28,171 nucleotides of DNA, taken from positions 1-28,171 of the IMG/VR virus record IMGVR_UViG_3300032241_002138; one strand, given 5' to 3'. Every line of letters starts with the position of its first letter. Position 1 is the first letter of the stretch. Below, one piece after another: positions 730-24,276 of this stretch. A model generated the notes under the pieces. It saw nothing but the letters and a program-made list of their open reading frames with translations, did not search any database and was not told the DNA's origin. The stretch comes from a virus. Position numbers and translations under genes: made by a program.

Positions 730-756
730 AAAATAAGGTGGTGAAATAAATAAATG
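730..756 (+). promoter_or_regulatory. Translation leader of the capsid gene, identical copy at 5113-5139
   Basis: This 27-base stretch holds the ribosome site AAGGTGGTG (735-743), an A/T spacer of 10 bases and the ATG at 754. The same 27 bases precede the tail tube gene. The spacer contains the mini-frame GTG-GTG-AAA-TAA (738-749), which may be chance. Confidence 0.7.
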
Positions 757-1899
757 AGTAATGAACTTCTACAAAAAGTAATTGATACTACGGACCTCGG
801 TTCTTCAGCAGTCAATGCATCTTCAGATTCCTCTACCCTTTCAGGTAATGGTCTTCTATATCCAGATCAAGCTAATCGCTTCTTGGATTATATGTGGGAT
901 GCAACAATTCTTGCTAAGGCAGCTCGTACAATCCGTATGCGTTCAAATACAACCGAAATTGATCGTGTTGCAGTTGGACAACGTATCATGACTGTTGCAC
1001 AGGAAGATAACCCACGTAATTTCGTGGCTAGTGGAGATAGCTATACAAATGCTAATGAAACAACTTTCTCTGCACAAAATGCAACATTTAACAAGGTTTC
1101 GCTTACTACTCGTAAGCTACGTCTTGACTGGGAACTTTCAGCAGAATCTCTTGAAGACAATATTGAAGGTCCAGATCTAGAAGACCACATTGCAAGACTT
1201 ATGGCTACCCAGGCAGGTAACGATATTGAGGATACCCTTATTAACGGTACAGGCACAGGGTCTGGTCTTATGTCAGCATTCGCAGGTTTCCGCACATTGG
1301 CTCTTAACAACGCTCACGTTGTTGACGCACAGGGTGTCGGACTTGACAAGGCGGTTTTCAACTTGGCAATTAAGACATTGCCTCGTAAGTACAAGCAACG
1401 CCGTAATCAACTTCGCTTCTTCACAGGATCGAATTTGGTTCAGGACTATCTATACAATCTAACAGCTGAGACCTCTTCAGGTTTCACACCATTTGATATC
1501 GCTTCAGGTATCCTACGTGGTGATGTTGCTGCTAACGATGGTGGTCCAGGTACAGTAACTCCATTTGCTTTTGGTATTCCAGTTATCAACGTTCCGTTGA
1601 TGGTTGAAACCCAAACAGGAGATTACAGCGGTGCATCAGGCCTTCATGGTGATGTACACTTGACGTTCCCACAGAACTTCATCATTGGTATCAAGCGTGA
1701 CGTAACTGTTTATCGTCTATTCCAGCCAAAGAAAGACACAATTGAGTACACACTCTTCATTCGTGTCGGTTGCGTAATGGAAAACTACGATGCACACGTT
1801 ATCGTTAAGAATATCAAGGTTGCAGGATCTGTTGCTTCAGGTGCTTTTGGATCTGTTACAAACAATCCAGGAATCACAGGAAACGGTAATACATACTAA
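754..1899 (+). CDS. Major capsid protein (HK97-fold type)
   Basis: This 381-residue protein has the size of an HK97-fold shell subunit and sits between the scaffold and the connector genes. The N-terminal segment (about 1-50) is Ser/Asp-rich. The core carries an alternation typical of this family: a helix rich in Glu/Asp (about 125-160, around LSAESLEDNIEGPDLEDHIA), a Gly/Thr loop (GTGTGSG), then a long basic helix (TLPRKYKQRRNQLRF, about 207-221). The C-terminus is small-residue-rich. Arg codons are almost all CGT/CGC and Lys codons mostly AAG, unlike neighbouring genes, as expected for the most abundant phage protein. A hairpin follows it. The family was recognised from overall pattern and position, without a database search. 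Confidence 0.85.
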   Translation: MSNELLQKVIDTTDLGSSAVNASSDSSTLSGNGLLYPDQANRFLDYMWDATILAKAARTIRMRSNTTEIDRVAVGQRIMTVAQEDNPRNFVASGDSYTNANETTFSAQNATFNKVSLTTRKLRLDWELSAESLEDNIEGPDLEDHIARLMATQAGNDIEDTLINGTGTGSGLMSAFAGFRTLALNNAHVVDAQGVGLDKAVFNLAIKTLPRKYKQRRNQLRFFTGSNLVQDYLYNLTAETSSGFTPFDIASGILRGDVAANDGGPGTVTPFAFGIPVINVPLMVETQTGDYSGASGLHGDVHLTFPQNFIIGIKRDVTVYRLFQPKKDTIEYTLFIRVGCVMENYDAHVIVKNIKVAGSVASGAFGSVTNNPGITGNGNTY

Positions 1900-20818: not shown

Positions 20819-22426
20819 ATGGCTATTCAAATCAATGGTCCAGATGGATGGACATCGGTACAACAAATTCAAATTAATGGCCCAGATGGATGGACACCTG
20901 TTCAAAAAGGATATGTTTATGGTCCAAGCGGTTGGACTTTATTTTATTCACCATCATCATCTTTTTCTGCCCCAACAACTATATATGCTTCGGCAGACTC
21001 ATCAACATCTGTAGAAGTAACATGGTCTTCATCAACTCCAGATTCTGGTTATACCGTAACTTACGATCTTTATAGAAATACTACAGGGATTACACCAGGC
21101 AGCTCTCCATCATTGCTTCTAACAGGTGTCTCTGGAACATCAGAACATAATACTGGATTAACAACAGGCACAACATATTATTATTGGGTTAGGGCAGTTG
21201 AAACTAATGGTTCAATAACTAGTAAATCTTCTTGGACAGGACCTGCTGCTGCAGAACCTGTTTTGTTGCTTACTGCACTGACCCCATCATTATCTTCAGC
21301 TACATCAACTTCAGATGGATTTACATTTACTCTAAGTAATTATGATTCCTCTTATAGTTGGGGAATATCAACAAGTGCAGGCTCAATTTCTCCATCATCA
21401 GTTACTGCAAATGGAACATTTACTGTTAGCGGTCTAGCAGCAAGCGAAAGTGCTACTGTAACTGTTACAACATCAAAATCAGGATATTATAATGGCAGTG
21501 CTTCAGTAACAGGATCTGCATTAGCTTCAACAATATATTATGAGGCAACTTCTTTTTGGGACTTTCAAGATTCTTATTATATTACTAATCCATATTATGT
21601 TGGTACTGTTACATCTTTACCATCAGGAGTTTCTGCAAATACCTTGGTTACTGGAACATATGGATCAAAAAATGTTACTTATTATTATTACAGTACAATT
21701 AGTTCATCAAATGCTGTTTCACAACTTACTGCTTTAGGGCCAAGTAGCGGTGGCGGTAGCGGTGGCGGTGGCAGCACAAATAGCGGTGGCAGCACAAATA
21801 GCGGTGGCAGCACTTGCTCTTCTGGTGGCAGCACAAATAGCGGTGGCAGCACTTGCTCTTCTGGTGGCAGCACAAATAGCGGTGGCAGCACTTGCTCTTC
21901 TGGTGGAACAACAAATACTGGCGGGGGTGGTTGTTTTGTTTATGGAACACAAATTCAAATGGCAGACGGTTCATGGAAAAATATAGAAGATCTTTATATT
22001 GGAGAAGAGATAATGGCTGCCATTGTTCCCACAGTTCCAGATATAGAAGACCCGCTAGCTGATTATATTAATACTTGGTCAGCAACAAGTATTGTGGGAA
22101 CTACAAAAGGAACAGCATACGTTACAGATGTAGTAAATTTGTCTTTTAACAGATATTATTTGATTAATAATCAAGTAAAGGTTACATATGAGCACATTGT
22201 TCCAGTGCAACAAAATGGTATCTGGCGTTTTATAAAAGTAGAATCAATAAATGTTGGAGACATGATAATGGATGATAATTTAAATATAGTTCCAGTAATG
22301 TCTAAAGAATTAATTATTGATAATGTTAACACAACTGCTATTTCTATGAATGAAAGAGATATTTATTTCGTTAAAGGTATGATGGCTCATAATAACATTG
22401 ATGGCTCGATCGGCACAAAACAATAA
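20819..22426 (+). CDS. Tail-tip adhesin with Fn3/Ig-like domains and C-terminal Hint (intein-like) domain
   Basis: This 535-residue protein begins immediately after the fibre stop (20816-20818). Residues 2-43 are three 14-residue GPDGW-type repeats. An Fn3-like domain spans about 47-146 and an Ig-like domain about 150-232. A Tyr-rich segment precedes a Gly/Ser/Thr/Cys linker (about 309-371). Residues 372-525 form a Hint domain: Cys372 opens block A (CFVYGTQIQMADGSWKNIED), T456-x-x-H459 matches block B, and MMAHN (521-525) matches the terminal His-Asn. The +1 residue is Asn, not Cys/Ser/Thr, and only 10 residues follow. Classic splicing is therefore unlikely; cleavage or ester/thioester transfer at Cys372, as in bacterial intein-like domains, is the plausible activity. 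The calls are by motif only. Confidence 0.75.
   Translation: MAIQINGPDGWTSVQQIQINGPDGWTPVQKGYVYGPSGWTLFYSPSSSFSAPTTIYASADSSTSVEVTWSSSTPDSGYTVTYDLYRNTTGITPGSSPSLLLTGVSGTSEHNTGLTTGTTYYYWVRAVETNGSITSKSSWTGPAAAEPVLLLTALTPSLSSATSTSDGFTFTLSNYDSSYSWGISTSAGSISPSSVTANGTFTVSGLAASESATVTVTTSKSGYYNGSASVTGSALASTIYYEATSFWDFQDSYYITNPYYVGTVTSLPSGVSANTLVTGTYGSKNVTYYYYSTISSSNAVSQLTALGPSSGGGSGGGGSTNSGGSTNSGGSTCSSGGSTNSGGSTCSSGGSTNSGGSTCSSGGTTNTGGGGCFVYGTQIQMADGSWKNIEDLYIGEEIMAAIVPTVPDIEDPLADYINTWSATSIVGTTKGTAYVTDVVNLSFNRYYLINNQVKVTYEHIVPVQQNGIWRFIKVESINVGDMIMDDNLNIVPVMSKELIIDNVNTTAISMNERDIYFVKGMMAHNNIDGSIGTKQ
20822..20947 (+). repeat. Three in-frame 42-base repeats (GPDGW motif)
   Basis: Residues 2-15, 16-29 and 30-43 of the Hint protein share a 14-residue period. 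The first two differ at few positions in DNA (20825-20853 and 20867-20895, 27 of 29 bases equal). The third is degenerate (GPSGW). Confidence 0.75.
21785..21940 (+). repeat. 39-base tandem repeats abutting the Hint catalytic cysteine
   Basis: Three near-identical 39-base units (21785-21823, 21824-21862, 21863-21901) encode GGSTNSGGSTCSS. A diverged fourth unit (21902-21940) encodes GGTTNTGGGGCFV, and its Cys is the Hint catalytic residue. Cysteines fall at 333, 346, 359 and 372, exactly 13 apart. The tract is GC-rich against an AT-rich gene and extends leftward as GGS/TNS units from about 21743. Confidence 0.9.
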
Positions 22427-22445: not shown

Positions 22446-23024
22446 ATGGACAAAGAATACTTAGATGGAAAAATTGCTGTTTATAAAAATATAAATATTG
22501 ATTTAATGTCTTTGCTTTCAGATATTGGAACGGATGGTCCAGAATGGACTATTTCATATATGGATAATAGGGTTTATGATCCAAAAAGAAGAAATAATTT
22601 GGTGCTAGAGCTTGCACCTAATATTGATGAAATGAACACTAATCGTGAACTTTATGACAAGAAACAAAGATTACGACAAAAAATAGATGCAATTACCGCC
22701 CCATATATACTTGACTATTGTAAAGAAAATGATATAAAATTAAAAACCAAGATGTACTGGGACATTCTTCAGTATCGTGAGTCACAGCATATTGAATGGC
22801 ATAAAGATGATGGCCCACATCACAAATGTACAATATCTTTTGTCATTTATTTTAATGATGACTATGAAGGTGGAGAAATTCAATTTAAAAACTTTATGGG
22901 CGGAGGGCCAATTAAACCCGAACCTAATAGTATGCTTATATTCCCACCAACAGAAGAGTATTTGCATAGAGTAGTACCCATTGTTAGCGGAGTTAAGTTT
23001 GCAGCCATATCATTTGGATATTAA
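22446..23024 (+). CDS. 2-oxoglutarate/Fe(II)-dependent oxygenase (prolyl-4-hydroxylase-like)
   Basis: This 192-residue protein has the iron-binding facial triad H119-x-D121 (EWHKDDGP) and distal H174 (EYLHRVVP). Lys184 in SGVKFAAISFGY is at the usual place for 2-oxoglutarate carboxylate binding (Arg or Lys). The strand YEGGEIQF and the LIFPP turn also fit the double-stranded beta-helix fold. It would use O2 and 2-oxoglutarate to hydroxylate a substrate, which I cannot identify. The start at 22446 is chosen over an in-frame ATG at 22398 that overlaps the Hint gene, because the promoter lies between them. Its position after the tail-tip genes suggests a virion protein or host surface target. 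Confidence 0.85.
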   Translation: MDKEYLDGKIAVYKNINIDLMSLLSDIGTDGPEWTISYMDNRVYDPKRRNNLVLELAPNIDEMNTNRELYDKKQRLRQKIDAITAPYILDYCKENDIKLKTKMYWDILQYRESQHIEWHKDDGPHHKCTISFVIYFNDDYEGGEIQFKNFMGGGPIKPEPNSMLIFPPTEEYLHRVVPIVSGVKFAAISFGY

Positions 23025-23607: not shown

Positions 23608-24016
23608 TCGTATTGTTCAATCAGATAATGCAGTTGTTGATTATACTACAATTACAGCATTAATTAATGCTGTAAATGATTTACAAGTTCAGGTTGATAC
23701 TTTAAATAGTAATACAAATCATATAAATACAACCGTAGATGCATCTGGAAACGTAGTTCAAAAGTCTGTTGGACCAACCGTAGTTCATTCAGGACATCAA
23801 CCTTTTGTTGCAGGTCAATCATATGTTGACATAACATATCCAAATTTTAGTTCAAATCCAACTTTAGTTGCAACTTGTTCAGATAATACTGGAGTTGCAA
23901 GATATGCATATTTTTCTGGAGCAAATCTTCCAAAGACTTCCTCTGCTAGAATTAATATTACTCCTACCCCCACAAAAGCTTCTGGCTATGTTTGGTGGAT
24001 TGTAGTAGGTTCTTAA
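23600..24016 (+). CDS. Small beta-rich protein, possible tail-tip knob or H-type lectin-like
   Basis: This 138-residue protein starts at GTG 23600 after GAGGGGG, overlapping the previous stop. The N-terminal helix (about 15-45; ITALINAVNDLQVQVDTLNS) looks like a trimeric coiled coil. The C-terminal about 75 residues (HQPFVAGQSYVDITYPNFSS, then ASGYVWWIVVGS) resemble a small beta knob of the kind ending phage fibres. A helix-plus-knob design suits a short receptor-binding fibre. The assignment is from architecture only. Confidence 0.5.
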   Translation: MSNRIVQSDNAVVDYTTITALINAVNDLQVQVDTLNSNTNHINTTVDASGNVVQKSVGPTVVHSGHQPFVAGQSYVDITYPNFSSNPTLVATCSDNTGVARYAYFSGANLPKTSSARINITPTPTKASGYVWWIVVGS

Positions 24017-24276
24017 TGTACGAACCAATAAAATTTTGGACAAAAAGAGATAGAAGAATTAGCAGAGAAGGTTATATTTTAATTAAGGTTCCAGAACATC
24101 CTAAAAATTTTAAAGGTTGGTATTATGAACACCGCCTAATAATTGAGAAACAATTAAATAGAGTAATTGAGGATTGGGAAACAATTCATCATATTAATGA
24201 AAACAAACAAGATAATAGATTAATTAATCTTTTTATATGTTCAAGATTAGAACATAATAAAGCTCACGTAGCTTGA
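24016..24276 (+). CDS. Free-standing HNH endonuclease
   Basis: This 86-residue protein has its ATG in a TAATG overlap with the upstream gene. Its HNH signature is complete: EHR (38-40), IHHINENKQDNRLINL (57-72) with the catalytic HH and structural Asn residues, and LEHNKAH (79-85). This family makes metal-dependent cuts in DNA and often behaves as a homing-type selfish gene in phages. A longer in-frame start at 23992 lies inside the upstream gene and is unlikely. The gene sits between fibre-type genes and the metallophosphoesterase, and its stop overlaps the TTGACA of the next promoter. Confidence 0.88.
   Translation: MYEPIKFWTKRDRRISREGYILIKVPEHPKNFKGWYYEHRLIIEKQLNRVIEDWETIHHINENKQDNRLINLFICSRLEHNKAHVA

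Follow-up and report, generated by a model that had tools for sequence, protein, structure and literature searches.

A BIL-like Hint domain at the end of a phage fibre protein probably cuts or covalently attaches the fibre end and is co-inherited with an oxygenase gene

The window analysed here, a 28,171-nucleotide stretch of viral DNA (record IMGVR_UViG_3300032241_002138), encodes a 535-residue fibre or adhesin protein whose last 164 residues consist of a complete Hint domain and a 10-residue tail (Table 1). The domain has the sequence features and the predicted fold of an A-type BIL, and the phage probably uses it to cut or covalently attach its own fibre end. The best explanation overall, to which we assign a probability of roughly 0.7, is that an A-type-BIL-like thioester would form at Gly371–Cys372 and the fibre end would be released or transferred.

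PHROGs matches placed the fibre gene in a tail gene cluster, with a head protease and a major head protein encoded upstream, followed by a tape measure, a minor tail and a tail protein. The first-pass annotation had called the product a phage tail-tip adhesin; gene order places it in the tail gene cluster, the tail tip being a putative position. The major capsid protein (window 754-1899) shares up to about 56% identity with those of Streptomyces phages (Sham, Faust, Gilson), a similarity insufficient to assign a host, and a small ORF at window 23992-24276 carries a HHINENKQDNRLINL motif that looks HNH endonuclease-like by eye only. Translation recovered the GPDGW repeats of the first-pass annotation, with GPDGW or GPSGW starts at residues 7, 21 and 35, and analogous N-terminal repeats of the x-GGW/GVWK type occur in relatives. 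The proposed Fn3-like domain was likewise found by Pfam; the proposed Ig-like domain is plausible and had no Pfam profile match. The stalk ahead of the Hint domain is an STN-rich GGSTNSGGSTCSS repeat that carries three extra cysteines (333, 346 and 359); relatives have (NTI)n or (NTV)n followed by G3-5 in place of this stalk. In relatives L101, L100, L015, L016, L018 and L019 the stalks are long tripeptide repeats, (NTI)n, (NTV)n or (IDT)n, with a hydrophobic residue at every third position and GGGGC directly after.

Table 1. Features of the fibre gene, its downstream neighbour and Hint-less sister fibres; coordinates refer to the window unless a relative is named.
Feature	Coordinates	Strand	Basis
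Tail-cluster fibre/adhesin gene with Hint domain as its end	20819..22426	+	535 aa; tail neighbours by PHROGs
Three GP[DS]GW-type repeats, N-terminus, residues 7-39	20837..20935	+	Read from translation
Fn3-like domain, residues 50-132	20966..21214	+	Pfam fn3, E 6.9e-5; 23.4 bits, slightly under the curated cut-off of 25
Low-complexity stalk/linker GGSTNSGGSTCSS... with GGGG end, residues 311-371	21749..21931	+	Translation, relatives compared
Hint domain, BIL-like, residues 372-525	21932..22393	+	Pfam, alignment, AlphaFold2, structure and profile matches
Catalytic Cys372, block A position 1	21932..21934	+	Same in all 24 homologues aligned
Block B T456-Y-E-H459	22184..22195	+	T, E and H invariant in 24-sequence alignment
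Block G, C-terminal His524-Asn525	22388..22393	+	Invariant in 24-sequence alignment
C-terminal tail NIDGSIGTKQ, 10 residues after HN, without +1 nucleophile	22394..22423	+	Translation; relatives' tails 5-10 aa
2OG-Fe(II) oxygenase gene	22446..23024	+	PF13640, 45.7 bits versus cut-off 27
(FFPP)n sister fibres without Hint and without oxygenase	L099:6983-10198, L104:7001-10282; also L111, L113, L114, L118, L172		

The residues on which the Hint call had been based, Cys372, T456-x-x-H459 and H524-N525, were confirmed by translation (154 residues from Cys372 to Asn525), as were Asn526 at the +1 position and the end of the protein 10 residues past HN. Searched alone against Pfam, the domain matched Hom_end_hint (E 3.3e-6) and, weakly, Vint, PT-HINT and Hint_2; all of these single-sequence matches stayed under their curated cut-offs, and homologues were therefore gathered for family analysis. 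The set comprised close relatives on 15 other IMG/VR contigs, Alexandra/Y3/AD1-type jumbo phages, Phage NCTB and a T4-like group in which the Hint domain is internal and its gene adjoins the tail genes. Alignment of 24 phage Hint sequences revealed 15 invariant columns among 151 without gaps, and Cys372, Thr456, His459, His524 and Asn525 are all among the 15 (hypergeometric P 5e-6, a guide only because the sequences are related). A search of the window record with PF14890 returned no matches, which reflects the low sensitivity of that profile for such a divergent domain, and a UvsX-intein match was not used for an intein call because it is limited to approximately the first 29 residues.

The AlphaFold2 model of the domain, built from the 24-sequence alignment, showed a confident Hint fold (pLDDT 87.9, pTM 0.83). 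The model superimposed best on BIL2 (6y75; Z 19.6, 1.8 Å, 140 residues) and on the C. thermocellum BIL (2lwy; Z 18.9, 1.6 Å, 131 residues), followed by inteins (Z 18.0 and below) and hedgehog (1at0; Z 17.0, 1.9 Å, 131 residues); differences under 1 Z are ties, so that structure by itself ranks BILs only slightly above inteins. The family profile gave the same BIL-first order more clearly, matching BIL2 at 8e-11 and the C. thermocellum BIL at 1.4e-9, then 8w20, 'Intein C-terminal splicing domain-containing', at 3e-5 and the first intein proper, gp41-1, at 1e-4. The Hint identity of the domain is thus well beyond chance, with family-profile matches of 8e-11 to 1e-9 to solved BIL domains, and this part of the original label, 'intein/hedgehog-like', stands. 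The domain is, however, BIL-like and not hedgehog-like, because its C-terminal His-Asn is invariant. Identity to BILs of proven activity is only about 20%.

The A-type BILs of C. thermocellum (2lwy) and of the T. thermophila BUBL1 locus (BIL2; 6y75/6tmm) share with the window domain the Hint fold, the N-terminal Cys, the block B TxxH, the C-terminal His-Asn and the lack of both a +1 nucleophile and an endonuclease. In A-type BILs a +1 Cys, Ser or Thr is dispensable, and the residue after HN in the eight distinct alleles of the window family is N, N, L, F, I, Y, I and I; the Alexandra group has T at this position, whereas the T4-like group has K. A-type BILs are further located in variable, often surface or secreted proteins, away from conserved housekeeping sites, and the window domain sits at the end of a variable tail fibre that is exchanged between relatives. 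Unlike these BILs, it ends a phage fibre, with a 10-residue tail and a 2OG oxygenase cassette. The tails after HN are 5-10 residues long, except in the T4-like group (about 100 residues), and a variable +1 residue combined with tails of 5-10 residues is what one would expect of a BIL, not of a class 1 intein (PMC4031507). Given an unconstrained +1 residue and so short a tail, ordinary intein splicing is unlikely, and the first-pass annotation had already judged splicing of a C-extein unlikely from the Asn at +1 and the brevity of what follows.

Three other Hint classes were considered and ruled out. Class 1 inteins, including phage mini-inteins of the gp41-1 and UvsX type, share the fold and blocks A, B, F and G; unlike them, the window family has no +1 Cys, Ser or Thr and no real C-extein (Asn at +1 with just 10 residues remaining), and its domain lies at a variable C-terminus. 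The hedgehog Hog domain (1at0) has in common the Gly-Cys junction, the C-terminal position and the expected thioester chemistry; the window domain differs in keeping the terminal His-Asn, in having no room for a sterol-recognition region because the protein stops 10 residues past HN, and in the absence of evidence of a lipid acceptor. Pretoxin HINT (PF07591) is similar in sequence, and relative L049 passes the PF07591 cut-off; unlike pretoxins, window-type domains have no toxin, domain or other C-terminal effector past HN. This L049 protein (L049:5638-6486), on a Chitinophaga MAG contig with phage-like genes, is 282 residues long with a Gly-rich linker, a Hint domain and an 11-residue tail, and at 35% identity to the window Hint domain it was the top match of a bacterial genome scan. 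A lipoprotein-like surface protein from a Bdellovibrio MAG (L059:4906-6486), with repeats, a GGGGGTGSG linker and a Hint domain near the C-terminus, shows the layout of the window fibre in a bacterium.

The Hint domain is under purifying selection: for pairs with unsaturated synonymous sites within the window's own family, dN/dS is about 0.07-0.30, against about 0.06-0.33 for the neighbouring oxygenase. Because the catalytic columns are invariant and +1 is free, selection acts on the five chemical residues and not on a +1 nucleophile. Throughout the window family a Gly-rich junction precedes the Cys; the residue before the Cys is Leu in the T4-like group and Gln in Afa-NA1, so activation of a glycine is not universal. 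The T4-like protein (L025-L035, for example L031:4485-5771) is fibre-like; its Hint domain is internal and has Lys at +1, and the C-terminal part that follows, about 100 residues long, is Ig/fn3-like. The gene lies shortly before a tail sheath-like gene.

The first-pass annotation had overlooked that the Hint domain is co-inherited with an enzyme and exchanged together with it. Directly 3′ of the Hint fibre gene, in all eight distinct alleles of the window family, lies a gene with both the profile match and the metal site of a 2OG-Fe(II) oxygenase, the HxD...H site being kept as WHxD(D/N)G and a distal HRV in a 6-sequence alignment. Its reading frame is open from a TTG at 22398, and the ATG at 22446 agrees with the starts of its relatives. 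Matches to the fibre N-terminus also included L099 and L104, 70-76% identical in that region and ending in (FFPP)n; both lack the Hint domain and the oxygenase, and their fibre gene is immediately followed by the next conserved gene. Comparison of L101 with L104 at the DNA level revealed one clean replacement with flanks that align on both sides: L101 10366-11732, comprising stalk repeat, Hint and oxygenase, is exchanged for L104 9985-10346, the FFPP end. Stalk repeat, Hint and oxygenase therefore move as one cassette, as sister fibres with another C-terminus have neither Hint nor oxygenase.

We then took a census of 80 contigs, many of them close relatives, anchored on a conserved downstream phosphatase gene that was picked regardless of Hint. 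Eight contigs (3 distinct alleles) carried the Hint domain, each with the oxygenase; a family profile, which could miss very divergent copies, detected the oxygenase in none of the 72 Hint-less contigs, most of which had enough upstream sequence to reveal one. A search with the oxygenase alone returned no further Hint partners. Other census phages carry Peptidase_S74 chaperone fibres in the same slot, and since S74 and FFPP alternatives occupy it, the slot is a hotspot of exchangeable fibre ends, of which Hint is one option. As the oxygenase is found solely with the stalk-Hint module, it most likely modifies the Hint fibre itself; the Asn/Thr-rich stalk, (NTI)n in relatives and STN-rich in the window, would be the simplest target because the Pro-rich alternative comes without the enzyme. 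Hydroxylation of prolines in a Pro-rich stalk was also considered as its task; the (FFPP)n sister fibres, which have no oxygenase, weaken this idea.

In the Hint superfamily, a thioester forms between Cys1 and the residue preceding it with the help of the block B His, and cyclisation takes place at the terminal Asn. In the window protein, His459 and Thr456 would aid an N-to-S acyl shift at Gly371/Cys372, which would turn the glycine-rich end of the stalk into an activated thioester, and Asn525, aided by His524, would cyclise and free the short tail. As there is no +1 nucleophile, water, an amine or a hydroxyl would resolve the thioester: water would shed the Hint domain from the mature fibre, and an amine or hydroxyl would bond the fibre end to the short tail peptide, another virion subunit or a surface molecule. 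Ligation of the fibre to its 10-residue tail in the style of A-type BILs could also occur, and the downstream oxygenase would modify the same fibre. Processing at Cys372 is likely; given processing, transfer or ligation to an acceptor has slightly better than even odds and plain hydrolytic shedding slightly less than even.

The Hint domain could be a removable C-terminal cap that hydrolyses itself off after folding, like the Peptidase_S74 chaperones at fibre ends, which self-cleave; we regard such shedding as a real possibility, short of probable. Peptidase_S74 (chaperone of endosialidase) is likewise a C-terminal fibre module and fills the same gene slot in related phages, although its fold and chemistry are unrelated. 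BILs lacking a +1 nucleophile, of which type A keeps His-Asn and can splice, yield mainly cleavage products (PMC4031507, PMC7664689), which also favours shedding; the strict oxygenase linkage would be left unexplained, as would the invariant His-Asn, for which N-terminal cleavage alone has no need. Self-excision of the domain, with the fibre joined to its own tail of 5-10 residues, would account for the invariant HN and has a precedent in the ability of type A BILs to splice without a +1 nucleophile (PMC4031507). In the Alexandra group the tail is even more conserved than the Hint domain (94% versus 83% identity) and Thr stands at +1; the tails of the window family, however, vary in both sequence and length, and cleavage usually dominates in BILs, which makes such splicing improbable here. 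We consider it equally improbable that the domain is chemically silent and structural, or a decaying selfish mini-intein. The homing endonuclease is indeed absent and true inteins do occur elsewhere in phages, for example in UvsX-type genes, but the catalytic residues are among the few invariant positions, dN/dS is low, the domain occupies a variable fibre C-terminus rather than the interior of a conserved site, and it is exchanged along with the oxygenase in a single cassette.

The more ambitious branch of the thioester explanation is conjugation, in which a lysine or hydroxyl of a partner (a neighbouring fibre chain, another tail protein or the host surface) would attack the thioester and create a permanent bond, the acceptor possibly being made or exposed by the oxygenase. 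BIL2, from the Tetrahymena BUBL1 locus, is reported to form isopeptide bonds, through which the ubiquitin-like domain ahead of it is conjugated, independently of ATP, to ubl5 and Ras (PMC8616854), and the window fibre resembles its layout in having a glycine-ended module immediately ahead of the Cys. Since this nearest solved relative, the top match by both structure and profile, reportedly makes such bonds, covalent coupling is plausible, and either outcome, cleavage or coupling, would be in keeping with the conservation of the active site and with the reported BIL2 chemistry (PMC8616854). Conjugation is also favoured by the strict co-inheritance of a hydroxyl-adding enzyme and by the two collagen-like fibre genes, potential partners, that adjoin the Alexandra-type Hint chain. 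Nearness to BIL2, however, does not bring its specificity, and we hold conjugation tentatively, as somewhat unlikely. A conserved tail lysine was considered as a built-in acceptor: one is present in every tail seen, yet the background is 45-52% per ORF, so that it is a weak hint at most and was not counted. In its fullest form, which we put forward as a speculative and unlikely proposal, the cassette would be a phage-encoded, ATP-independent self-conjugation system in which the oxygenase hydroxylates the fibre or a partner, and the C-terminal glycine of the fibre becomes joined, through the BIL-like domain and via an isopeptide or ester bond, to a defined virion or host acceptor, making fibre assembly or receptor binding covalent.

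The Alexandra/Y3/AD1-type jumbo phages and Phage NCTB also carry a tail or structural protein with a C-terminal Hint domain and a short tail; they differ in having collagen-like or other stalks, and within the stretches seen no oxygenase gene adjoins their Hint genes. In Erwinia phage Alexandra, gp112-gp110 (L004:3011-5586) are three neighbouring collagen-like fibre genes built on a similar plan, and gp112 alone has a C-terminal Hint domain; the other two are possible partners. The record of Y3 gp110 bears the note 'contains intein domain', so the bare presence of such a domain had been noticed earlier, and Hint or intein domains in phage tail proteins are thus already on record (Y3 gp110; NCTB). 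Our literature search turned up no paper devoted to Hint domains of phage tail adhesins; what this analysis adds is that different phage families conserve the active site, that the domain can be assigned to the BILs, and that an exchangeable cassette at the fibre end links it to an oxygenase.

Few natural roles are known for BIL domains. In the window, such a domain is maintained by selection at a specific location, the tail-fibre end, where it shares a swappable cassette with a modifying enzyme. Virion mass spectrometry could address the question directly in relatives that are in culture (Erwinia phages Alexandra and Y3, Dickeya phage AD1 and Yersinia phage fHe-Yen9-02). If covalent coupling is true, it would provide a potential ATP-independent ligation tool, and phage tails would carry a single-turnover ligation device that bears on adsorption and fibre assembly.
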